From: Paenibacillus sp. 1781tsa1
GTDB lineage: Bacteria; Bacillota; Bacilli; Paenibacillales; Paenibacillaceae
Assembly: GCF_024159265.1 (NCBI RefSeq)
Contig: NZ_JAMYWY010000001.1
Span: 6,386,001-6,450,000 of the forward strand
DNA length: 64,000 bases
Reading direction: 5' to 3'
Part shown: one piece after another, positions 15,524 through 30,806 of the stretch
Layout of the letters: the number at the start of each line of letters is the position of its first letter
Position numbering within the stretch: position 1 is the stretch's first letter
Program-made: the position numbers and the translations under genes
The notes under the pieces: model-generated
The model's input: the letters and a program-made list of their open reading frames with translations, nothing else
What the model was told of the DNA's origin: nothing
Database searches by the model: none

Positions 15524-16591
15524 CTAACGCCGTTCCACCAGCCGCTCCGTCTGTTTCAAATCCTCAATCCGCCCTGCGCCAATGCCAAACATCACGGTAC
15601 GCAGCTCGAATTCGACCTGTTCCAGACGCTCATTCAGCGCATCATCGGAAGCGACTGCAGAATCGAGCAGAGATCGGCCAAAACCAGCGAGATCCGCACC
15701 GAGAGCGAGGGCTTTGGCCGCGTCTACGCCCGTGTACAGTCCACCGCTGCCAATCAGGGCACCAGTAGGATTCAGCGCTCGTACTTCCTGAATACACTCT
15801 GCTGTGGGAATGCCCCAGTCGGCAAAAGCTTCAGCAGCTGCCCGGCGTACCGGGTTATTGTTGCGGTACTTCTCTACCTGTACCCAGCTTGTACCTCCAG
15901 CCCCGGCTACATCGATAAACGCGACACCCGCTTCATATAAGCGTTGAGCCGTCACACCATCGATGCCAAAACCTACTTCTTTTACGCCAACAGGCACGTC
16001 TAGCTCACGACACAAGTTTTCAATCCGCTGAAATAATCCGCTGAAGTTGGTGTTACCTTCCGGCTGGAAAACTTCCTGCAACGTGTTCAGATGAAGCACG
16101 AGCATGTCCGCACCCGCAATATCTACAGCACGCTGGAAATCAGCTGTTGTGAAACCATAGTTCAACTGGACCGCGCCCAGGTTGGCAATGACCGGGATGT
16201 CCGGTGCCCAGCGCCGCACATCGAAGGTACTAGCCAGTTCCGGCTGTTCCACGGCAGCCCGGATCGAACCTACGCCAAGCGCCCAGCCTCTGGCGTTTGC
16301 TACTCGAGCGAGGCGCTCATTGATGGCGCCCGTTGTTTTGCTTCCACCCGTCATCGAACTGATGAGCAAGGGTGTGCGTACTTTTTTGCCAATAAACGAA
16401 GTCTCCAGATGCACCTCTTCAAAATCCAGTTCCGGCAGTGGGTGATGGCGAAACGCAAACCGCTCCATACCGCTGGTTACCCCTTCTCCTGCCACATTCT
16501 CCTCAAGACAGAGGCGCACGTGTTCCAGCTTCCGTTCTCCTGTAGCCACTTCGGGAAGCAGCCGTTCGCCGGCTCGCTCTTGTTCATTCAT
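15524..16591 (-). CDS. fni: Type 2 isopentenyl-diphosphate delta-isomerase
   Basis: FMN- and NADPH-dependent enzyme interconverting IPP and DMAPP. Start ATG 16591 ([10 protein letters not shown], 355 aa), supported by AGGAGG 8 nt upstream; the longer reading has no such site. Family motifs: [10 protein letters not shown] (19-28), SSMTGG (78-83), [14 protein letters not shown] (167-180), KEVGFG (204-209) and GAGGTSW (230-236). It lies 220 bp downstream of the last crt gene on the same strand, so it probably supplies the DMAPP/IPP balance for FPP and carotenoid synthesis. Confidence 0.96.
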
Positions 16592-16811
16592 GATGAGACC
16601 TCCTATGTGAGAATCGTGCGGATCGACAGGATAACCTGCCCGTTCCTTGCTTCTATGTATATATGTCTTATGCAAAAGACAAAAACATTCATCTAATAAG
16701 CATTGCAGCATACCTCTATCCAGTATAACGTTCCAATCCAGCTATGGAAAGGATGCCCCGACACCAAATGTCTCAGTTAAATCTCGGAGCACCACTATCT
16801 TATATACCTAC

Positions 16812-18293
16812 TTATCTCAATATTTCCGATGCCAACCGCTCACCAACAAGCTGTCCGGACAACGTCACAATCGGGGTTCCGCCGCCAGGATGCGTTGTAC
16901 CGCCGACGTACCAGAGTCCTTGTACATCTTTGCTTCGGTTGCCCGGTCGCATAAAGGTCTGCTTCACCGAGTTGGACGAAATGCCATAGATCGACCCTTG
17001 ATGCGCCAACGTTTCCCGTTCGATATCTCGCGGCGTGTACCGGATCAGCACATCAGATTGGTTCAACCCGGTAATTCCTCGTGCTGCCAATTGTTCCAGT
17101 ACAAACGCACCGTAACGTTCCGTCTGCTGCTCCCAATTCCACGAATCCGACAAGTAGGGGGCATTGACTAGAATGAATAGGTTACTGGCTCCCGCCGGGG
17201 CCATGCCTGCTTCCGAATAACCGGAATAACAGATGTAAATCGTCGGATCAGCAGGCATTTTACGTTCACGGAAAATATGGTCGAACTCCGGTTCATAACG
17301 TTCCGGGAAGAACACCGTATGGTGCAGCAATGCATCATATTGTCTTCGCACTCCCGCCAACGTCACAAATCCCGAGATTGATGGCTCATACTTCTGTATA
17401 CGAGCATCGCTCATTTCTTTCCGATGTTCCGGTGCGAGCAGCAGTCGATTCACGCTAAGCACATCGCCATTGGCAACCACCTGATCGGCTTCTCGGAAGC
17501 CTTGATCCGTATCCACACCTGCCACTTTGCCATTCCGAACAACAATCTGCCGGACCTCTGTGCCGGTAATGATCTGTACACCTTTTTCCCGTGCTAGCCG
17601 AGTCATTCCTTCGATCAGTTGATAGGTTCCGCCTTTGACACCGAAGATGCCGACTTCCGCTTCCACATGACCCATCATGGCAAAGATGGAAGGCGACTGA
17701 TATGGCGATGATCCCACATAGGTTGCGTACCGTCCGAACATAGCCAGCGTATGCGGATGTTGGAAATACGAGCGTAGTAACTTATCCAACTTCACCGTTG
17801 GCCGCACGCGGAGCAGGCTGCGCAGCATCTGGAGATTGTATTTGTCAGAAGGAGACAGCAGTAACTTACCGAGAAAATGACGATTGGCTTCCGCATACAG
17901 TGCAGCAGACTCATCCATAAACGCATCATAACGAGCCGCATCCTCCGGACTGTACGCTGCGATCTGCTCTTTCATCCACCCGCGATTACCTGACAAATCC
18001 ACCACTGTGCCATCTGCAAATATATTACGCGTGCGCGGCTCCAACTCATATAACTGTACGTAATCTTCCATTGCTACACCCGCATGGTCGAAGACTGAAC
18101 GAAAGGTGGATGGCATCGTGATCGTGCTCGGTCCCCGGTCAAAATGATATCCGTCCCGCTCAATCTGCTGCAGCTTGCCACCTACGTGTTGCTGCCTTTC
18201 CAGAATGGTCACCTGCACACCTTGTGAAGCCAGTCTTATCGCACACGATAGACCTCCGAATCCTGCACCGATAATGATGACGTTACCTCTCAA
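16812..18293 (-). CDS. CrtN/CrtP-like carotenoid desaturase or oxygenase (third paralogue)
   Basis: FAD-dependent amine-oxidase-fold enzyme of the phytoene desaturase family, 493 aa. The N-terminal dinucleotide motif is IIGAGFGGLSCAIRLASQG, then ERQQHVGGK, and the C-terminal FAD motif reads YVGGTTHPGGGTPIVTLSGQ. The TTHPGGGTP signature resembles staphylococcal CrtP (diaponeurosporene oxidase) more than CrtN, so oxidation of a C30 carotene end is my preferred role; a third desaturase is possible. It overlaps the glycosyltransferase gene by 4 bp and is the last gene of the seven-gene operon. Confidence 0.87.
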   Translation of the reverse strand: MRGNVIIIGAGFGGLSCAIRLASQGVQVTILERQQHVGGKLQQIERDGYHFDRGPSTITMPSTFRSVFDHAGVAMEDYVQLYELEPRTRNIFADGTVVDLSGNRGWMKEQIAAYSPEDAARYDAFMDESAALYAEANRHFLGKLLLSPSDKYNLQMLRSLLRVRPTVKLDKLLRSYFQHPHTLAMFGRYATYVGSSPYQSPSIFAMMGHVEAEVGIFGVKGGTYQLIEGMTRLAREKGVQIITGTEVRQIVVRNGKVAGVDTDQGFREADQVVANGDVLSVNRLLLAPEHRKEMSDARIQKYEPSISGFVTLAGVRRQYDALLHHTVFFPERYEPEFDHIFRERKMPADPTIYICYSGYSEAGMAPAGASNLFILVNAPYLSDSWNWEQQTERYGAFVLEQLAARGITGLNQSDVLIRYTPRDIERETLAHQGSIYGISSNSVKQTFMRPGNRSKDVQGLWYVGGTTHPGGGTPIVTLSGQLVGERLASEILR

Positions 18294-19438
18294 CTGTACC
18301 GCCTACCTTTCCATACATACCCCTTGCCGGAGCGGCCTGCCTGCCAGGAAGCGAGTCCAATGGCAATAACACAGGCCATGCTGACCGGTTGCAGAAGGGC
18401 AAGCCACCAGGGTTGTCCGCCAGCATGATCCGCTACTCTTTTCACAGCCATACCCAATAATGTTCCTATCAATCCATACAGAATCGACATCGAATTACCT
18501 GTCATGAGTCCAAAAATCAATCCCAGCGGAGGCACCATATACATCAGCGTATACATCAACATTGTGCCAAGCAGCAGTATGTCTTTGCGTCCCATACCTT
18601 CGTACATATTTTTCTTGTATCCGTTCCATACTTCTGCACCGTTCTGATACATGCGGGTATTCGTTACGTCATGCACGTCTGTCAGCATCACCGGATGGCC
18701 TGCACGCTTAACCGCTTTGGCTAGACTCATGTCATCCACCAGATGCGCCTGAATGGCAGCATGACCGCCGGATGCCTCGTAACTGGAGCGATGAATCAGC
18801 AAAAAAGCCCCCGTAGCGGCCACAAACATCGGACTGGATGATCTGCGTATCATGAAAATGGGCAGATGACTGATGATGGTGAAGACCATCATGGGAACAA
18901 CAAGCTTTTCCATCCACGTCTTCGTTACCTGATATGGAAAACCAGTTACCAGACCGCCGCCCTGCTCACACCCTGCCGCAAGAGTCTGACGAATGGCACT
19001 TGGCTCCAGTCGCACATCCGCATCCACGAACATATACCATTCTCCCTTGGCCTCCTGTACCAGCCTGTGACACGCATGGGATTTCCCCATCCAGCCCTCG
19101 GGAAGATCGACACCATGCAGTAGACGCACACGTGCATCACGATCCGCAATCGCTTGTACCATGGCCGCTGTCTCGTCTTCAGAGCGATCATCCAGCACTA
19201 ATACTTCCATCCGGAATCCCGATGTATCGCTCGCTAGCACACTTTCCAGACATCCTTCGATATGTAGTCTTTCATTTCTGGCCGGAATCAGCACCGAGAC
19301 CAGCAGGTCCGGTGGTTGTATCTTGTCTGACCGGAATGAACGTACTTTGGGCAGACAGGAGAGGTTCCATAGAGCGAACAGCAACTGTATTCCCAATATG
19401 CTTGTAAGTACAATCCAGAAGATTTCAGATGTATTCAT
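18290..19438 (-). CDS. Family 2 glycosyltransferase, CrtQ-like
   Basis: Membrane-bound GT-A glycosyltransferase, 382 aa. It has one N-terminal helix (about 8-25), then VSVLIPARNE, VLDDRSEDET, FVDADVRLEP (DxD) and a membrane region of three to four helices at the C terminus (about 290-360). In the staphyloxanthin pathway CrtQ glucosylates the carotenoid carboxylate; the same role is inferred from operon context. The start ATG lies 1 bp after the acyltransferase stop. It overlaps the next gene by 4 bp (ATGA), consistent with translational coupling. Confidence 0.87.
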   Translation of the reverse strand: MNTSEIFWIVLTSILGIQLLFALWNLSCLPKVRSFRSDKIQPPDLLVSVLIPARNERLHIEGCLESVLASDTSGFRMEVLVLDDRSEDETAAMVQAIADRDARVRLLHGVDLPEGWMGKSHACHRLVQEAKGEWYMFVDADVRLEPSAIRQTLAAGCEQGGGLVTGFPYQVTKTWMEKLVVPMMVFTIISHLPIFMIRRSSSPMFVAATGAFLLIHRSSYEASGGHAAIQAHLVDDMSLAKAVKRAGHPVMLTDVHDVTNTRMYQNGAEVWNGYKKNMYEGMGRKDILLLGTMLMYTLMYMVPPLGLIFGLMTGNSMSILYGLIGTLLGMAVKRVADHAGGQPWWLALLQPVSMACVIAIGLASWQAGRSGKGYVWKGRRYS

Positions 19439-19439
19439 C

Positions 19440-20201
19440 CTAACGGTTCACCCGCTTTCGCGTGGCATCGTATTTTTCACTTGTCGAACGTACATGACGA
19501 ATCAGCGGAAGCGCATCTGGCAAGCTCCCCTGTCCCATCCGTATAAGCTCTGATCGGTGATCGTCTAACTGTTGTTCCATCACAAGACCGAGTCTGGAGG
19601 CAATCTCTTCACTCTTGAGCGTCTTCCAGTCTTCCATCACAGGAGGGCCTACCTGCATCGATACTTCCGGTAGATCATGCTGAACCATCCCATGGCACAA
19701 GGTTACCGGTACGGCAATGGCATTCGGAGAGCGACGAAGCAGCAATCCGATGCCTGGACGGAACTGAATCGGTCTAGCCTCCTGATGGAGAATTTCTCCT
19801 TGTGGGAAGATCCAGACCCTTTTGCCCGAATCCAGCAGTTCACTGGTGTACTGTAGAGAGGTCCGAATACCGGACGCACTCTCTTTATTAATTGAATACG
19901 CACCCAGTTTACGAAAAAAGGCATATTGCTGAAGTTGCTGTTCCTCCATCATCACATAATGATCTCCCCGTGATGTCTTCCTGGCCGCATGATAGAGCAG
20001 CAGACCATCCCACCAGGAGCTGTGGTTCATGAAGTAGATCACCGGGCGATTGGGATCAATCGGGGAGTTGTCCCTGATATCCACCTGCGGGTCCAGAGAC
20101 CCCGATAGCGTGAATGAGCGGAAGCGCCTACGCAGCAGATAATAGTGATTATATAAGGCAAAAATCCGATTAAACGGTTTTGATTTTACGGCGCGAATCA
20201 T
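19440..20201 (-). CDS. 1-acyl-glycerol-3-phosphate-type acyltransferase (carotenoid acyltransferase candidate)
   Basis: PlsC-like fold: acyl-binding/catalytic motif NHSSWWD (HX4D), and the later FPQGEI block. Start ATG 20201 (MIRAVKSKPF, 253 aa) with GGGAG 8-9 nt upstream; it overlaps the CruF-like gene by 32 bp. PlsC-like proteins inside C30 carotenoid clusters are thought to acylate the sugar of glycosyl carotenoids, the step done by CrtO in staphyloxanthin synthesis. A role in ordinary phospholipid synthesis cannot be excluded, but the location inside the operon argues against it. Confidence 0.82.
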   Translation of the reverse strand: MIRAVKSKPFNRIFALYNHYYLLRRRFRSFTLSGSLDPQVDIRDNSPIDPNRPVIYFMNHSSWWDGLLLYHAARKTSRGDHYVMMEEQQLQQYAFFRKLGAYSINKESASGIRTSLQYTSELLDSGKRVWIFPQGEILHQEARPIQFRPGIGLLLRRSPNAIAVPVTLCHGMVQHDLPEVSMQVGPPVMEDWKTLKSEEIASRLGLVMEQQLDDHRSELIRMGQGSLPDALPLIRHVRSTSEKYDATRKRVNR

Positions 20202-20937
20202 ATAGCCAGCTCCCTTCGGCAAGAAGCAGACCAGCAATGGCGATGATAAAGCTACCTGTAATCCCTTCCTTTAAGGCAAGTAGGCCAAACAGAAGAATAA
20301 AGAGCTGATACAGCCATTTTGCACGCAACAAAGAGCTACGGTCACCAGGCATGGCCGGAAGGAAGAGGGAAAGGAATGCGCCCATGATAAACCAGCTTAT
20401 GTAATTGGTCCACGGAACCCCGTAAAATCCACCTGGGGCCTGCCATACCCAGAATCCTCTTGCATGCGCAACAGGGTCGAGTACCAGATCGAGTACAACC
20501 GCCCAGAACCCGGTCTTCACGGCTCGAAGCAGCTTGCCCGTCCAAGTTGAGCCACCGCCACTTAACAGCGCCGAGTTACCCACCACTGCGATCCAGGCAA
20601 AACCCAGCGTAACAGGCACACTGAACAGATGAATCCCGAAGAAGTCCGAGTAAGCATACTCACCAAAGGGCCAATGCGTATGCACCCCTACCCACTCCAC
20701 GCCCATACCACCCAACCAGATGATCACGGAAGCGATCCACAGCCCAGGTTTCAACCAGATGACTGACTGGTCGGACAGACCTGTCCGATTGCGCCCCTGG
20801 TAGATCAGATCCAGCACATACAACGCATAGAAGATTAAGAATAGACCATTGGAAAAGGACAACACGTCCGGCACGCCGATCGTCAGCATCAAGGTTGCTC
20901 CAATAACATACCACGCCCAGTAAAGCCACTGGATCAT
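20170..20937 (-). CDS. cruF: CruF-like carotenoid biosynthesis membrane protein
   Basis: 255-aa polytopic protein with about seven hydrophobic helices, resembling the DUF422 carotenoid family that includes CruF, a carotenoid 1,2-hydratase. The segments GVEWVGVHTHWPFGEYAYSD and LDLVLDPVAHARGFWVW look like the family's conserved polar positions in membrane helices. Its start overlaps the synthase stop by 1 bp. If it is a hydratase, the end product would carry a tertiary hydroxyl at C-1, the site that is then glycosylated. Function is inferred from family and context. Confidence 0.8.
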   Translation of the reverse strand: MIQWLYWAWYVIGATLMLTIGVPDVLSFSNGLFLIFYALYVLDLIYQGRNRTGLSDQSVIWLKPGLWIASVIIWLGGMGVEWVGVHTHWPFGEYAYSDFFGIHLFSVPVTLGFAWIAVVGNSALLSGGGSTWTGKLLRAVKTGFWAVVLDLVLDPVAHARGFWVWQAPGGFYGVPWTNYISWFIMGAFLSLFLPAMPGDRSSLLRAKWLYQLFILLFGLLALKEGITGSFIIAIAGLLLAEGSWLYDSRRKIKTV

Positions 20938-21809
20938 CAGGATACCGCCGTTCGGGAGGCTTGATAGGCCAGCATCGGGTAACGTTTCACAATCGCACCC
21001 AACATCTCCAGTTTCAATTCATCACTAACATATGCCCGTTTGGTATATACGTCATAGTCATTGCGTTCGACCGCGTGTAGAATGGTGGAGTAAAAGGCTG
21101 CTGCCAGCTCAATCGAAAACGCACTTTCCGTCGGATATGTATCCAGTCGATCCATGCCAATACGGAACCAGTTCAATGCTGCCGCTTTTAATTCATGAAC
21201 AATGGCAATAAAACGTTCGTCCACGACCCCGTCTTCGAAATCCTGCTCGGTGTAACCATGCTTCTCCATGATCTCCAGCGGAACATACCGGCGTACTCTG
21301 GCCCGATCTTCACCAACATCCCGAATAATATTAACGATCTGCATCCCTTTACCCAAGGCAATCCCGTTCATGGCTACTTCCGCGCCATTATCATCCCGCA
21401 ATACAGGCAACAACATCTCGCCTACAGTGCCGGCTACCAGATAACAATAATGCTCCAGTTCCTGCATCGTTGCATAATGCGTTACTTTAAGATCGGTGAG
21501 TTGCCCTTCCATCTGACGGAAGAATGGCCCCTTATCCAGATGAGGGAAACTGCTGAACAACCATCTCAGTGCTGGCCAGATAAAATGTCCTTCCGCGTCA
21601 TCCAACTGATCAAACAAATCATGGATTTCGTGAATCGTATAGGGCGAATGCTCCGGCTCGTCTACACTGTCATCAATCATGCGGCAGAAGGCATAAATGA
21701 CATATACCGCTTCCCGACGTGGACTTGGCAGCCCTCTAAAGGCCTGATAAAAAGAGGAAGAACCCTTCTGCATCAACTCTTCACACCTGCTCAAAATCGC
21801 TTCATTCAT
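20937..21809 (-). CDS. crtM: Dehydrosqualene/phytoene synthase (CrtM/CrtB family)
   Basis: Head-to-head prenyl synthase of 290 aa with both Mg-diphosphate binding Asp motifs: DDSVD at 46-50 and DVGED at 164-168 (in NIIRDVGEDRARVRRYVP). It condenses two FPP to C30 diapophytoene, or two GGPP to C40 phytoene. The cluster lacks a crtE, and the neighbours resemble CrtN/CrtP/CrtQ, so a C30 pathway is more likely. It overlaps the upstream desaturase gene by 4 bp. Confidence 0.93.
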   Translation of the reverse strand: MNEAILSRCEELMQKGSSSFYQAFRGLPSPRREAVYVIYAFCRMIDDSVDEPEHSPYTIHEIHDLFDQLDDAEGHFIWPALRWLFSSFPHLDKGPFFRQMEGQLTDLKVTHYATMQELEHYCYLVAGTVGEMLLPVLRDDNGAEVAMNGIALGKGMQIVNIIRDVGEDRARVRRYVPLEIMEKHGYTEQDFEDGVVDERFIAIVHELKAAALNWFRIGMDRLDTYPTESAFSIELAAAFYSTILHAVERNDYDVYTKRAYVSDELKLEMLGAIVKRYPMLAYQASRTAVS

Positions 21810-23269
21810 GTTCCCATCTCCTTCGTGAGTTGATTGACGGCCATACGTGCACTCTGCATCACAATCGGCACTCCCCCTCCAGGATGTACAGATGCTCCTG
21901 CGGCATATAACCCCTTGATATTAGGGAATGGTTTGGGTTGTGGTCGATATACACCAGACTGGAACAACACTGGCGCAATACCGAAGCTTCCGCCCCCATA
22001 GAGCCCGTCTCGCTCTGCGTCAGCGGGTGTACGTACCTTTTTCCACTTGATCGCTGCACGAAGTCCCGGGAATCCCCGTTGCTCCGCTTCTTCCAGTACC
22101 CGTTCTGCCAATGCTTCGCTCTCCTGATCCCAGTCGACACCTTCGGCATCGGGCACAGGAATGAGGAAATACAATACACTCTGTCCTGAAGGCGCTGCTG
22201 TCTCATCCAATGCGACCGGATTAAATACGTAAAATGAGGACTTTGCCGGAATGCGTCGCTGATTGAAGACTTCCTGTAAACTACCTTCCAGACTCGGTGG
22301 CAGGAAGAACTGGTGCGTCGTTGCATCTTCCCAGGTTTTGTCCACGCCCACATAGAGCAATACACATCCGGAAGAGGGACGATATGGCTTTCTTTTACGC
22401 GCTACCTCTGGTACTTGACCAAGCAAACCCGAAAGATGGGGGAAATCACCATTGTAGATAACTGCATCCACATTTTCTGCGCCTGCTGCCGTTTCTATAC
22501 CTTCACATACACCATTTTTAATCGTGAGCCCTGTAACTTCCGCATTCAGCACAACACGTCCACCACGTGAGATCAGTTCCTGTTCCAGAATGGCCGGTAA
22601 TGCTGCATACCCGCCCTTCACCATCCAGATCCCATATTCATGCTCTGCATAGGGAAGCAGGGAATAGATTCCTGGCGTCCCGAACGGAGATCCACCGATG
22701 TATAGACTTTGTAGCGAGTAAGCGTCTAGCAATTCCTCATGCTGAAAATAATCGCCTACCGCTTTCCGGACACTTTTGTGTGCACGCAATCTGCCCATGA
22801 GTGACATGAGAGATGGTGTGAAAAAATCCCTTTTGCGTGGAAAAGCCCGTTCCAGAAACGCTGCCCGGCCTGCAGGAAACAACGTGTCCATATCTCTCAT
22901 GAATCGTGTGAATCCCCGGCTCTCTCCCGGAAACAAACGTTCAATCTCCGCCGTCTGCTCTTCACGTGAGGTCATCTTGGTCATGACCCGACCACTGTGG
23001 TAATGCACTCTGTATAGCGGATCACAGCGAAGTAACTCAATCTTCGAACGATCTACGCCTGCTTCCTCCAGTATGCCAAGTAACATCTCCGGCAGAAGCA
23101 CAATGGTTGGCCCCTGATCGATCCGATACTCCCCTTCCTGTTCATATCCAATGCGTCCGCCAACGCGGGAACCCCGTTCATACACGGTGACATCCCATCC
23201 CTGACGGTTCAACAACAGCGCCGAAGTAAGTCCGCCAATCCCTGCCCCTACAATGGCGGCCCGCTTCAT
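21806..23269 (-). CDS. CrtN-like diapophytoene desaturase (second paralogue)
   Basis: 487-aa phytoene-desaturase-family flavoprotein. N-terminal FAD motif AIVGAGIGGLTSALLLNRQG followed by YERGSRVGGR; C-terminal motif LYAAGASVHPGGGVPIVMQSA. In staphylococci a single CrtN does all desaturations; in other bacilli two or three paralogues share the work. Closest in layout to CrtN. The start overlaps the preceding gene by 4 bp. I cannot tell from sequence which double bonds it introduces. Confidence 0.88.
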   Translation of the reverse strand: MKRAAIVGAGIGGLTSALLLNRQGWDVTVYERGSRVGGRIGYEQEGEYRIDQGPTIVLLPEMLLGILEEAGVDRSKIELLRCDPLYRVHYHSGRVMTKMTSREEQTAEIERLFPGESRGFTRFMRDMDTLFPAGRAAFLERAFPRKRDFFTPSLMSLMGRLRAHKSVRKAVGDYFQHEELLDAYSLQSLYIGGSPFGTPGIYSLLPYAEHEYGIWMVKGGYAALPAILEQELISRGGRVVLNAEVTGLTIKNGVCEGIETAAGAENVDAVIYNGDFPHLSGLLGQVPEVARKRKPYRPSSGCVLLYVGVDKTWEDATTHQFFLPPSLEGSLQEVFNQRRIPAKSSFYVFNPVALDETAAPSGQSVLYFLIPVPDAEGVDWDQESEALAERVLEEAEQRGFPGLRAAIKWKKVRTPADAERDGLYGGGSFGIAPVLFQSGVYRPQPKPFPNIKGLYAAGASVHPGGGVPIVMQSARMAVNQLTKEMGT

Positions 23270-24816
23270 GAATGCCCTCCTGCTTCTGCCGTCTTCACAT
23301 AAGAGGATGGCTTGGAGCGTGTGCGCGCGTCCTCTTCCTGGATCAGCCTCACGCTGATTCGAGCCGATTCAAAGATCGTTGGCAATCCGCTGCCGGGATG
23401 TGTTCCGCCGCCTACAAGCCATACACTTTTCAACTCTTCAAACTGGTTATGGGGACGCAAGTACATCATCTGACCCAGATTATGCGCCATATTAAACGTT
23501 GCTCCGCGGTACACATCCAGTTCATTCTCCCAATCGAGTGGAGTGAACAGCTTACACTCTTCAATGCGGCTGCGAATGTCTGCCAGCTCAGGAACGCCTT
23601 CCAAGCGTTTCATCATGGCCTCCTGCACATTCTCACGTTCTGCTTCCCAATCGATGTCTGCGGTAAGATTAGGCGTAGGCATGAGAACATATAAAGCGGA
23701 TTTCCCTTCCGGTGCCAGCGTCGAATCGAGTCTGGAAGGGTTATGAATATATAGAGATGGATCGGCTGACAACATTTTGTGCTTCGTAATCTCATCAACG
23801 TTCAACCGGTAGTCCTCGGGAAAATAGATCGAGTGATGCGGCAGATCCACTTCACCATCCACACCCAGATACAGCATCGCTGTCGAGCAGGAGTACTTTT
23901 TGCGTTTCATTTTCTCCGGGGTATATTTCTTAAGTACGCCCGGTTCGAACAGATGGTTCACCGCATGTGCGAAGTCGGCGTTCACCACCACATGGTCCGC
24001 GTCGATGCGTTCACCGCTCTCCAGCCACACACCTTCTGCACGACCATCGCGAACGATGACCTGTTTCACCGGGGTGGAAGTATGTATGCGTCCTCCGTAT
24101 TCTTCCACGACATCAGCCATGGCTTGGAAGATCCGATTCACACCGCCAATGGGGTGGAACAATCCGTAATGATGCTCGATGAACGATAGTATGGTAAAGG
24201 TACCCGGACAATCCCAGGCGGACATGCCAAGGTATTTGGATTGGAATGTAAATGCCCAGCGTAGACGCTCATCTGTAAAATAGCGGGACAAGATCCCATA
24301 GACGGTGTTGTGGACATCAAGCTTAGGTAGAGCTGTTACCGCGTCTTTGCGTAGATAGTCAGTCAGCTTGCCAAACGGACGGCGGAGCAAAGGCATGACT
24401 TTGCCAAATTTCACTTCTTCTTCTTGCATGAACCGAAGGTAATTGTCTTCATTGCCCGGAAACAATTCTTTAATCTGTGCAGCTGTATCTTCCCGATTAC
24501 GAGAAGGCGTGAACACCGTATCACCAAAGTTCAGTGCGTACAGCGGGGTTAGTTCTTTCATATGCACATAATCGGATAACTTGCGTCCCACCACGTCGAA
24601 CATCTCTTCAATCAACTGAGGCATCATCAAAAATGTTGCCCCCCGGTCGAATCGATACTCGCCCAGTTCTAATCTGGCAGAACGCCCCCCGATGACTGGC
24701 TGTTTCTCATACACATCTACTTCGTACCCCTGACCGGACAATAACATCGCTGCTGCAAGTCCACCCGGACCCGCGCCAATCACAGCTGCACGTTTGCGTT
24801 GTTGATTCGGTATCAT
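23266..24816 (-). CDS. CrtN-like diapophytoene desaturase (first paralogue, first gene of operon)
   Basis: 516-aa flavoprotein with the motif AVIGAGPGGLAAAMLLSGQG, EKQPVIGGRSARL, DRGATFLMM, and the C-terminal VWLVGGGTHPGSGLPTIFESA. GTHPGSGLP is common in CrtI-type desaturases. It is the promoter-proximal gene of the seven-gene crt operon and lies directly behind the predicted CarH operator. The last 25 residues are a polar tail. Assigned as the first desaturase by gene order and motif, not by demonstrated specificity. Confidence 0.88.
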   Translation of the reverse strand: MIPNQQRKRAAVIGAGPGGLAAAMLLSGQGYEVDVYEKQPVIGGRSARLELGEYRFDRGATFLMMPQLIEEMFDVVGRKLSDYVHMKELTPLYALNFGDTVFTPSRNREDTAAQIKELFPGNEDNYLRFMQEEEVKFGKVMPLLRRPFGKLTDYLRKDAVTALPKLDVHNTVYGILSRYFTDERLRWAFTFQSKYLGMSAWDCPGTFTILSFIEHHYGLFHPIGGVNRIFQAMADVVEEYGGRIHTSTPVKQVIVRDGRAEGVWLESGERIDADHVVVNADFAHAVNHLFEPGVLKKYTPEKMKRKKYSCSTAMLYLGVDGEVDLPHHSIYFPEDYRLNVDEITKHKMLSADPSLYIHNPSRLDSTLAPEGKSALYVLMPTPNLTADIDWEAERENVQEAMMKRLEGVPELADIRSRIEECKLFTPLDWENELDVYRGATFNMAHNLGQMMYLRPHNQFEELKSVWLVGGGTHPGSGLPTIFESARISVRLIQEEDARTRSKPSSYVKTAEAGGHS

Positions 24817-24913
24817 GCACTCACCTCTCTATGTAGGGAATTCCTATAGTTCTCTAGCCCCTAGCCTATTATTAAACCGCCCAAGAACACTTTAAGCGGT
24901 AACCAGCAAAAAC

Positions 24914-24946
24914 ATTATACAAATATAATACAAATATTATACGACC
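24914..24946 (+). promoter_or_regulatory. Predicted CarH operator at the crt promoter (three 11-bp direct repeats)
   Basis: Three head-to-tail 11-mers in register at 24914 (ATTATACAAAT), 24925 (ATAATACAAAT) and 24936 (ATTATACGACC), all containing ATNATAC. They cover the -10 and spacer of the crt promoter. The same triplet occurs upstream of the CarH-like gene itself. Confidence 0.8.
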
Positions 24947-24953
24947 TTGTAAA
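24925..24953 (-). promoter_or_regulatory. Promoter of the crt operon
   Basis: Minus-strand -35 TTTACA (24948-24953), a 17-bp spacer, and -10 TATTAT (24925-24930), about 110 bp upstream of the first crt gene. It is overlapped by the three 11-bp repeats, so repressor binding would occlude RNA polymerase. Confidence 0.7.
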
Positions 24954-25003
24954 CCAAAAAAATGACCCATCGGTCAAATTACGAGGATAATCCATTTATA
25001 AAC

Positions 25004-25042
25004 ACAAAAAAACATCCCTTGATCACTTTCGTCAAAGGATGT
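25004..25042 (-). terminator. Terminator after the CarH-like gene
   Basis: Minus-strand hairpin ACATCCTTTGA/TCAAGGGATGT (one mismatch) followed by TTTTTTTG. It separates the regulator transcript from the crt promoter. Confidence 0.75.
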
Positions 25043-25082
25043 CCTGTATACAGTAACCTATTCATATCATTTGAGATTATGT

Positions 25083-26042
25083 TTAGTTATTTGCCTGTCC
25101 AAACCTCGCACCAGGTGGTTGCTCTTTAAGATACTCACGTTCTATCCATGACTGCCAATCCGCTGAATCCTCTGGCATGATCCATTGCGGGTAACGAGCA
25201 TGTTCTGCACGCTCATAGCCCTTCCCACCAAGTACGAAGCGAATATGTGGAAACTCATTTTTAATCCGCTCTATAAGCTGATCGCACCGTTCAAGCAGCC
25301 CCGGACTTGTGATCGAAAGACAGACCAACTTGATCTTTTGCTCCCGGATAATCGGGAAGATGCCTTCTTCTGGCGTGTTCGCACCGAGATACAGTACTTC
25401 CGCTCCATTTTTCCGCATAAAGAGAGAGAACAGCAATAACCCGACCTGGTGATGCTCCCCTTCCGGACACAACGCCAGAACTTTGGGCAGATGCGGATAG
25501 ATCGGGAACAGATGGAAAAACTGATAAAACCGCTGTGAAATCAGCTGAGTCATGAAGTGTTCCTGAGCCACCGAAGCCCTACCTTGCTCCCATGCATCTC
25601 CAACCCGAACCAGTATGGGTACCAGCACATGATAGAACATCGAGTCGTACCCGTACATGGTGAAACCAAAATCAATCAAACCATTGGCACGTTCACCCTG
25701 AAAGTTGTAGAGCGAGTCATAGATTTGATCTGCCATGCGTGCGTATGCTTCTTCCATTGTAGGCACCGGAGCCATGATCGGAATAGGCGCAGCTGCCTCG
25801 GGTGGGTTTAATTTGTTTACTTTCAACATCCGTACCGCTTCCGAGATACTGGTCTGATGCAACTCTACCTGTTCTTTCAACCAGCGCAGATCCTCAACAT
25901 TCTCTTCGGTATACATTCGATAACCCGATTCCGTCCGCTCAGGGGTGACCGCATCATACCGATTCTCCCAAGCCCGGATTGTTACCGCCCTGATATCGAG
26001 CATGGCTGCGACTTGTTTGATGGAATACACCTTATTACCCAC
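25083..26042 (-). CDS. carH: CarH/LitR-type MerR-family B12-dependent photoreceptor repressor
   Basis: MerR helix-turn-helix (VYSIKQVAAMLDI...RAWENRY) joined to a four-helix B12-binding-2 domain and a Rossmann cobalamin domain. Numbered from GTG 26042, it has the CarH signature W151-x9-E161-H162 and the cobalamin motif E196-x-H198-xx-G201. Such proteins bind DNA as AdoCbl tetramers in the dark and fall apart in light, so the crt operon is predicted to be light-induced. The residue after W151, a His used for the light-state ligand in Thermus CarH, is Glu here. I chose GTG 26042 (AGGAAAG upstream); the GTG at 26069 has no ribosome binding site. Confidence 0.9.
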   Translation of the reverse strand: MGNKVYSIKQVAAMLDIRAVTIRAWENRYDAVTPERTESGYRMYTEENVEDLRWLKEQVELHQTSISEAVRMLKVNKLNPPEAAAPIPIMAPVPTMEEAYARMADQIYDSLYNFQGERANGLIDFGFTMYGYDSMFYHVLVPILVRVGDAWEQGRASVAQEHFMTQLISQRFYQFFHLFPIYPHLPKVLALCPEGEHHQVGLLLFSLFMRKNGAEVLYLGANTPEEGIFPIIREQKIKLVCLSITSPGLLERCDQLIERIKNEFPHIRFVLGGKGYERAEHARYPQWIMPEDSADWQSWIEREYLKEQPPGARFGQANN

Positions 26043-26119
26043 TTTCTTTCCTAAATGTCCAGATTTCACAGGTTATATCATTGGTTCCCCGTCCTTGTCA
26101 GGCATATGAAAACCCTAAC

Positions 26120-26152
26120 ATTCTACAAAAATAATACACTCATTATACACAA
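26120..26152 (+). promoter_or_regulatory. Predicted CarH operator at its own promoter (three 11-bp direct repeats)
   Basis: Three in-register 11-mers at 26120 (ATTCTACAAAA), 26131 (ATAATACACTC) and 26142 (ATTATACACAA). Same spacing, orientation and core as at the crt promoter, indicating autoregulation. Confidence 0.78.
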
Positions 26153-26170
26153 CGCTCAGACACCTGTCGA
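26142..26170 (-). promoter_or_regulatory. Promoter of the CarH-like gene
   Basis: Minus-strand -35 TCGACA (26165-26170), a 17-bp spacer and consensus -10 TATAAT (26142-26147). The operator repeats start at the -10 and extend downstream over the probable start of transcription. Confidence 0.75.
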
Positions 26171-29799: not shown

Positions 29800-29815
29800 T
29801 TGACCTTAAGGTCAA
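29800..29815. promoter_or_regulatory. Perfect 16-bp palindromic operator
   Basis: TTGACCTTAAGGTCAA, a perfect palindrome placed at the predicted transcription start, 44 bp upstream of the TetR start codon. Probable binding site of that TetR protein. Confidence 0.7.
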
Positions 29816-29858: not shown

Positions 29859-30806
29859 ATGAACCCTATACATGAAATGAATGAGAAGAAAAAACTCATC
29901 ATTACTACAGCACTCAAGCTATTCTCATCCAAAGGCAGTGCTGCAACATCCATGCAAGAGATTGCCGAACTATGCGGGATGTCCAAAGGCAGCCTGTATA
30001 TCATGTTCAAATCCAAAGAGGAATTGGAAGCCAGTACGCTGGAGTACTGCATGTACACGCTGATGGACGAGATGACGCAGATTGAGCATGAAACCAGCCT
30101 CTCCTCAAGAGAGCGCCTGCACAAGCAGATTGAAACACTACTCATTCATGTAGCCGAATTCAAGGAATTTTTGCGGGTACAATTGCGAAGCATGATGCTG
30201 GATGATGAACAGCAACGCAAGGAACAGTGCCACCCACAGCAAAGAGATCTGGAGATCCGTACCTTACATTGGTTCAAGGATAAGCTTGAAGAGCAGTATG
30301 GACCTGAGATTGAACCATATACGATTGATCTTATTTTGTTGACACACGGACTGTTCCTCTCCTATGTCAAAATCTGGTTTACAGAGATGCCATCTCTCAC
30401 TGTTAACAAAATGGCAACAAACTTGCTGCAAATGATGGACTATGCCGCACATGGATTTCTTAACCAGCGACCTGAGCCTTTGATTCCTCTGGAGGAATGG
30501 CCTGCCTGGATTACCGAGGCCCAACCAGATTCCACGGTGATGCGACATCCTATCCATATCATCAAACAAATGCAGGATATTGCCGCCTCCGATTTACCCG
30601 CAGGGCAACCGAAGAATGATGCTCTTGAAACCATTGCCATTCTCAGACAGGAGATGATGGAATTCACGCCGCGGCGTGCCATTATTCTGGGCATGATGCA
30701 CAATCTGGAGAACGTAACTGCCATTCAACCCTTGCATTCCGAGCTTCAGCATATTTTGGATGCCATGTATAGCCGGTTCATCCCTGCTGACTCGTCACAC
30801 ACATAA
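29859..30806 (+). CDS. Long TetR-family regulator of the RND exporter
   Basis: 315 aa from ATG 29859 (AGGTGA 11 nt upstream). N-terminal helix-turn-helix: KKLIITTALKLFSSKGSAATSMQEIAELCGMSKGSLYIMF. Residues about 60-190 are the usual TetR ligand domain. About 110 further C-terminal residues, which include DALETIAILRQEMMEF and a helical HNLENVTAIQPLHSELQHILDAM tail, go beyond the normal 190-220 aa size. It ends 33 bp before the RND gene and is predicted to control that gene and itself through the palindrome at 29800. Confidence 0.87.
   Translation: MNPIHEMNEKKKLIITTALKLFSSKGSAATSMQEIAELCGMSKGSLYIMFKSKEELEASTLEYCMYTLMDEMTQIEHETSLSSRERLHKQIETLLIHVAEFKEFLRVQLRSMMLDDEQQRKEQCHPQQRDLEIRTLHWFKDKLEEQYGPEIEPYTIDLILLTHGLFLSYVKIWFTEMPSLTVNKMATNLLQMMDYAAHGFLNQRPEPLIPLEEWPAWITEAQPDSTVMRHPIHIIKQMQDIAASDLPAGQPKNDALETIAILRQEMMEFTPRRAIILGMMHNLENVTAIQPLHSELQHILDAMYSRFIPADSSHT

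Follow-up and report, generated by a model that had tools for sequence, protein, structure and literature searches.

Paired three-repeat arrays at the carotenoid and carH promoters of a Paenibacillus genome: predicted operators of a B12-dependent photoreceptor of the CarH/LitR family

Operators of the CarH/LitR protein of Bacillus (Priestia) megaterium were reportedly described by Fernandez-Zapata in 2018 and by Takano in 2015. For the family more broadly, the accessible parts of two papers give the CarH repeats as nAnnTnnACAn or nnnnTnnACAn (PMC8156234, PMC9304148). The Thermus operator has three repeats, and that of B. megaterium has four or else three and a pseudorepeat; in Thermus, repeats 1 and 3 are occupied by one head-to-tail dimer, and a single domain of the other dimer touches repeat 2, and CarH operators mapped elsewhere mix full and degenerate copies (PMC9304148, in the portions available). 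In the Thermus operator of our collection (locus L165), TGTACA, TTGACA and TATACA follow one another at 11-bp steps; the original prediction had started from Thermus DNA-binding domains arranged head to tail on repeats of about 11 bp. In B. megaterium, carotenoid genes are under AdoCbl-dependent repression in the dark (excerpts of PMC9304148, PMC9758184 and PMC6739363), and an isolate nearest Paenibacillus alvei by 16S showed weak light induction of a carotenoid-like pigment (excerpt of PMC6739363). The suggestion that an operator of this kind may be undescribed in the lineage therefore has to be narrowed: a tandem 11-bp CarH operator is already known in Bacillota from B. megaterium (PMC9304148, in part), while for Paenibacillus we found none described among the open-licence papers listed, which for two of the searches were the first 20 of 87 and 15 of 120 matches.

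We analysed a window of 64 kb (G000:C1:6386001-6450000) from the 7.08 Mb genome of Paenibacillus sp. 1781tsa1, in which a carH gene stands beside a seven-gene carotenoid (crt) operon, assigned by family matches. The genes and the hairpin between them are as follows, in coordinates of the window.

15524 to 16711, minus strand: FMN_dh-family gene, about 100 bp after the seven-gene operon
16812 to 24816, minus strand: seven-gene carotenoid operon, frames overlapping or abutting
16812 to 18293, minus strand: amine-oxidase-type desaturase, carotenoid operon
18290 to 19438, minus strand: glycosyltransferase, carotenoid operon
19440 to 20237, minus strand: acyltransferase, carotenoid operon
20170 to 20937, minus strand: Caroten_synth protein, carotenoid operon
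20937 to 21809, minus strand: phytoene/squalene synthase, carotenoid operon
21806 to 23269, minus strand: amine-oxidase-type desaturase/oxidase, second copy of the family, carotenoid operon
23266 to 24816, minus strand: amine-oxidase-type desaturase/oxidase, carotenoid operon
25006 to 25043, minus strand: hairpin and T-run after carH, arms 25012 to 25022 and 25032 to 25042
25083 to 26069, minus strand: carH, encoding MerR_1, B12-binding_2 and B12-binding domains, 328 aa from GTG

The FMN_dh-family gene, presumably a type 2 isopentenyl-diphosphate isomerase, is possibly an eighth gene of the operon. The true start of carH may lie some codons downstream of the called GTG; proteins 94–97% identical to this CarH occur in genomes labelled P. 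polymyxa ISL-58, P. xylanexedens and P. amylolyticus, among other Paenibacillus. The hairpin between carH and crt folds at -18.1 kcal/mol (z -3.6) and is a probable terminator, which a simple terminator scan with a loop limit of 8 omits, as its loop is larger. With this hairpin and T-run between them, carH and crt probably form two transcription units, each of which would need an operator of its own.

An array of three 11-bp repeats was read from the sequence at each of the two promoters.

24914 to 24946, plus strand: predicted crt operator, three 11-bp repeats
24914 to 24924, plus strand: crt repeat 1, ATTATACAAAT, full TnnACA match
24925 to 24935, plus strand: crt repeat 2, ATAATACAAAT, degenerate
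24936 to 24946, plus strand: crt repeat 3, ATTATACGACC, degenerate
26120 to 26152, plus strand: predicted carH operator, three 11-bp repeats
26120 to 26130, plus strand: carH repeat 1, ATTCTACAAAA, full TnnACA match
26131 to 26141, plus strand: carH repeat 2, ATAATACACTC, degenerate
26142 to 26152, plus strand: carH repeat 3, ATTATACACAA, full TnnACA match

The triplets of 11-mers predicted to start at 24914, 24925 and 24936 and at 26120, 26131 and 26142 match the sequence exactly, and both lie on the plus strand. Because the genes are on the minus strand, both arrays run opposite to transcription, a point that had not been spelled out earlier. The 11-mers flanking the arrays (at 24903, 24947, 26109 and 26153) contain no TAC in register, so that each array consists of three repeats. 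As a strict pattern (ATNNTAC three times with a period of 11), such a triple occurs in the window at these two arrays only. Simulation did not reproduce it, whether in 40 sequences of 64 kb from an order-2 Markov model or in 2000 copies modelled on the two intergenic stretches joined together. In the whole genome there are likewise two matches, both of them these arrays, against none for the reversed-pattern control. When two mismatches were permitted, the genome-wide count (23) did not exceed that of the reversed control (28), and hence no further CarH target can be claimed beyond the two sites. No carotenoid or light gene was recognised, by eye, in the open frames adjoining the sole additional one-mismatch match (G000:C1:4163847) and two others.

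The arrays agree with the published code in part of their positions. With degenerate copies allowed, three tandem nnnnTnnACAn repeats are found at each of the two sites; ACA is present in five of the six repeats and the full TnnACA in three. Aligned on ACA, the window repeats carry an extra T before it. We considered a changed or shifted code relative to the published core and dropped it, as TATACA and TGTACA occur in Thermus too. The weak middle repeat at carH resembles what might be expected from the Thermus geometry, by analogy.

Promoter-like sequences on the minus strand lie under both arrays.

24925 to 24953, minus strand: predicted crt promoter, TTTACA-17-TATTAT, with the -10 inside the middle repeat
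26142 to 26170, minus strand: predicted carH promoter, TCGACA-17-TATAAT, with the -10 inside the promoter-proximal repeat

The overlap of the arrays with "good promoters" thus holds as far as position is concerned, and the operators would cover the predicted promoters of both the carotenoid and the carH genes; as matches, however, these promoters do not go beyond chance (four found versus 3.2 ± 2.0 in shuffles). Such figures, together with the overlap between the repeat core and TATAAT, invite another explanation, namely that the arrays are nothing but recurring TATAAT-like -10 hexamers in AT-rich promoter DNA. Among 12 representative relatives with CarH identity of at least 53%, slot 1 of the carH array indeed reads TATAAT in 12/12, and in nine of them a -35-like hexamer lies 17 bp upstream. 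However, slot 1 is the only carH slot that looks like a -10: slot 3 keeps TGTA in all 12 although TATAAT is found there in just one. In the same representatives, slots 1 and 3 each fit TnnACA in 12/12 and slot 2 in 3/12; these per-slot counts take one best three-slot window per locus, which truncates longer or doubled arrays or assigns their slots wrongly, and the crt count lost one of its ten rows to the score limit. An 11-bp spacing far in excess of other periods and the four or five repeats at the crt promoters of some relatives (see below) likewise speak against -10 hexamers. We therefore rejected tandem -10 hexamers as the whole explanation, on slot 3 conservation, the 11-bp period and the longer arrays, and regard this reading as very improbable.

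Reading the arrays as CarH operators, we turn to their conservation. A strict-pattern search of 75 genomes of the same genus returned 58 matches in 37 genomes, compared with one for the reversed pattern; a carH match lies no more than 325 bp away from 55 of the 58, and three are elsewhere. The pattern was present in 36/54 genomes with carH versus 1/21 without it (Fisher p 9e-7, uncorrected for relatedness). In two genomes of this set (G005 and G042), carH is split into two matches, being perhaps frameshifted or interrupted, and G005 retains both arrays.

A second set reached beyond the genus and comprised 137 CarH loci, i.e., 136 from collections plus that of the window. Except for 35 loci and the Thermus locus, the collected loci (100/136) were hand-picked from search listings and are thus a non-random sample. 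Ten of the 137 were dropped for want of a readable protein from the match, and the rest were clustered at 75% identity, which removes repeat entries of one genome, into 77 representatives: 47 at 39% identity or more to the window CarH and 30 below, a line chosen after the upstream regions had been viewed. Upstream of carH in the group of 47, two TGTA/TACA cores stand exactly 11 bp apart at 35 loci, whereas spacings of 7–10 and 12–16 bp give 0–3 and shuffled upstreams a mean of 0.8 (maximum 4). Accepting a 22-bp gap as well raises the count to 39/47, where other periods give 1–7 and shuffled upstreams average 1.5 (maximum 5). Three cores in a row at 11 bp were found at 14/47 loci and never at other periods or in shuffles.

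The strict pair is lacking at 12 of the 47 loci (L090, L108, L115, L128, L132, L133, L137, L146, L207, L212, L214 and L223). Four of them (L090, L108, L115 and L223) carry cores 22 bp apart; at L128, L132 and L133 the DNA before carH looks coding, and at L128 and L133 an array lies on the downstream crt side. Among the 30 distant CarH-like loci, no triple at 11 bp was found, the strict 11-bp pair occurs in five and a 9-bp pair in seven; this set includes Thermus, and the TTGACA of its middle repeat shows that the TACA core counted here is narrower than the published TnnACA. The crt promoters of relatives bear the same cores, several with four or five in a row (e.g., L090, L113 and L119), and an alignment of 26 distinct crt upstream sequences is conserved over the repeats for a longer stretch than anywhere else. 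A divergent CarH of Paenibacillus assamensis (L094) is preceded by an apparent five-repeat array, TGTATAATGGG TGTATAACTTT TGTTTAACCTT TGTATCACTTG TGTATAAG. Overall, the conservation that was to be looked for upstream of orthologous genes was found: Paenibacillaceae relatives keep the arrays at crt as well as at carH, and part of the wider class keeps them at carH.

Since binding of CarH to these arrays is deduced from sequence comparison, a different regulator reading the same 11-bp code might in principle be the protein that binds them. Yet strict arrays stand only beside carH in this genome, those of related genomes follow carH (the 36/54 versus 1/21 given above), and characterised CarH proteins read a matching code, which leaves such a regulator hardly credible.

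The protein itself has the domains of CarH (class I LitR) photoreceptors and both signature motifs of CarH. It has an N-terminal MerR winged-helix domain (PF13411, E 9.3e-15, residues 15–83), followed by the four-helix B12-binding_2 (PF02607) and Rossmann B12-binding (PF02310) domains, both above cut-off, and its best PDB matches are 3whp and 5c8d (Thermus CarH). The recognition helix reads RAWENRY, one substitution away from RxWERRY, the myxobacterial CarH/CarA motif; ENRY is found in 25 and ERRY in eight of the 47 representatives. The motif Wx9EH, which separates CarH from CarA, is present at 160 as WEQGRASVAQEH, and the B12 motif ExHx2Gx41SxV/Tx22-27GG is matched exactly from residue 205 (as ExHx2Gx41SxTx26GG). 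In 34 of the representatives a loose regular expression recovered the B12 motif, the other 13 being beyond its resolution. It is also important to note that the residue after the Wx9EH tryptophan is Glu161, at the place of Thermus His132, the light-state cobalt ligand. Glu occupies this position in 44/47 representatives, Ala in two and His in one (L094); a His there is common in many CarH proteins and is not needed for membership.

This substitution bears on another explanation, in which the arrays are CarH-like operators whose protein works without AdoCbl or light, like Myxococcus CarA. According to the accessible parts of PMC8156234 and PMC9304148, CarA binds DNA without B12, and Glu in place of His in nearly all representatives would suit a protein of that sort. 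Nevertheless, CarA lacks the Trp of Wx9EH, which is intact in 47/47 representatives, the B12 motif of the window CarH is complete, and the genome has an adenosyltransferase gene (Cob_adeno_trans, E 2e-60; the genome gave no match to CobA_CobO_BtuR). Given this gene, the cell can plausibly make AdoCbl from cobalamin, and we consider a B12-independent protein unlikely, though less so than the two explanations weighed before. The excerpt of PMC10442372 states that most of the light-exposed Thermus H132A protein remains tetrameric, and it also mentions an earlier report of H132A disassembly. As Glu replaces His132 here, light release in the Glu161 lineage may proceed by other chemistry or be weaker.

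Taken together, the evidence leads us to conclude, with a probability of roughly 90%, that both arrays are operators of the B12 photoreceptor of the CarH/LitR family encoded between them, bound in the dark by AdoCbl-CarH, which would repress both genes and release them in light. This is the reading that the original prediction had put forward, and conservation, the MerR and B12 domains, Wx9EH, the B12 motif and the match to published repeats support it. It is further favoured by the uniqueness of the arrays in the genome, their tracking of carH in the genus, the 11-bp spacing, Cob_adeno_trans, the terminator and the weakly light-inducible pigment of the isolate near P. alvei. Against it stand the three repeats of six that fall short of full TnnACA, a strand and promoter element that differ from Thermus, the 12/47 loci without an exact 11-bp pair, the weak signal at distant loci, and Glu for His132.

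By analogy with characterised members of the family, from which binding, oligomeric state, repression and light release are inferred, we picture the switch as follows. In the dark, AdoCbl-bound CarH would form an oligomer (the homologues of Thermus and B. megaterium form tetramers), and each of its DNA-binding domains would contact a single 11-bp repeat, all from the same face of the DNA. Such an oligomer would cover the -10 and start region of the carH and seven-gene crt promoters and block RNA polymerase. Light in the blue or green (below about 530 nm) would break the Co-C bond, the oligomer would fall apart, and carH and the crt operon would be transcribed; autorepression would keep the level of CarH within bounds.

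A further element lies just upstream of the crt -35 and is not a CarH repeat.

24963 to 24976, no strand assigned: palindrome TGACC-N4-GGTCA

Its arms are conserved and its centre variable in 22/27 close relatives, and it was found at none of 36 more distant loci. It is possibly a second operator or a small terminator hairpin: a T-run follows it on the minus strand, the terminator scan calls it terminator-like, and genome-wide the pattern and its reversed control have three matches each, so that a hairpin may be what it forms, in place of a second operator. A second copy (29801 to 29814) stands shortly before a TetR gene at 29880, beside an AcrB-type pump. The third (positions 1501–1516 of locus L244; G000:C1:5761134) precedes a gene that we take to be ctaA, for heme A synthase; an open frame at 408–1574 of this locus spans the palindrome, which is intergenic only if the gene starts later. 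Similar palindromes occur in relatives.

Another group of CarH-like genes has different neighbours. Fifteen of the 77 representatives, with 36–43% identity (L131, L135, L136, L138–L140, L142–L145, L147, L148, L152, L156 and L220), have a methyl-accepting signalling motif encoded divergently within 1.5 kb upstream. In the downstream DNA contained in the locus set, no crt-type motif follows any of the 15. The divergent gene was confirmed as PAS plus MCPsignal in L138 and L139, and several of the carH/signalling-gene intergenic regions have 11-bp arrays in both directions.

It is tempting to suppose that the CarH of Paenibacillaceae is a distinct variant, with repeats on the opposite strand over -10/+1, strong outer and degenerate middle copies, and a Glu-based photoproduct and release unlike those of Thermus; that the crt palindrome is a second, non-light input; and that another CarH-like group moved from pigment to the control of a divergent PAS and methyl-accepting protein. 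As a joint proposition, this is tentative and, in our opinion, rather doubtful.

Paenibacillus is common in soil and around roots, and whether light controls its carotenoid genes can now be tested directly at the base-pair level. The relatives offer dozens of natural CarH operator variants, with two to five repeats and a degenerate middle, for studying how MerR proteins read direct repeats. For the model in which a His ligand is considered important to the light response of Thermus, a CarH lineage that lacks it is a natural test, and further CarH/operator pairs become available for green-light gene switches.

Finally, we would like to set the locus beside the known systems. With Thermus thermophilus CarH (PDB 5c8d/5c8e/5c8f; pTT27) it shares three tandem 11-bp repeats with an ACA core, an operator that overlaps the promoter, carH beside carotenoid genes, and the MerR and B12 domains, at 30% overall identity. 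However, in Thermus the repeats follow the sense strand of carH and take in the -35 (TTGACA), whereas those of Paenibacillus are on the opposite strand over the -10, and the W-His of Thermus is W-Glu here. The CarH/LitR operators of B. megaterium, also from Bacillota, are likewise tandem 11-bp repeats over the -35 or -10 in the accessible descriptions; compared by description only, they differ in having four repeats, or three and a pseudorepeat, instead of three. Myxobacterial CarH/CarA operators, as far as the available excerpts go, share 11-bp repeats, both full and degenerate, and include three-repeat operators, but those of Cystobacterineae have about five repeats, one of them containing the -35, and an additional CarA/CarS pathway. 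The sites of Pseudomonas class II LitR have a core, T(G/A)TACA, that resembles the TATACA found here, although these proteins, unlike the present CarH, have retained just a single B12-binding domain of the two (PMC9758184, in part). Overall, tandem 11-bp CarH operators are known from Thermus, B. megaterium and myxobacteria, and the Paenibacillus pair is a further example with local differences: a motif opposite to transcription, a covered -10 instead of -35, a degenerate middle repeat and Glu for His.
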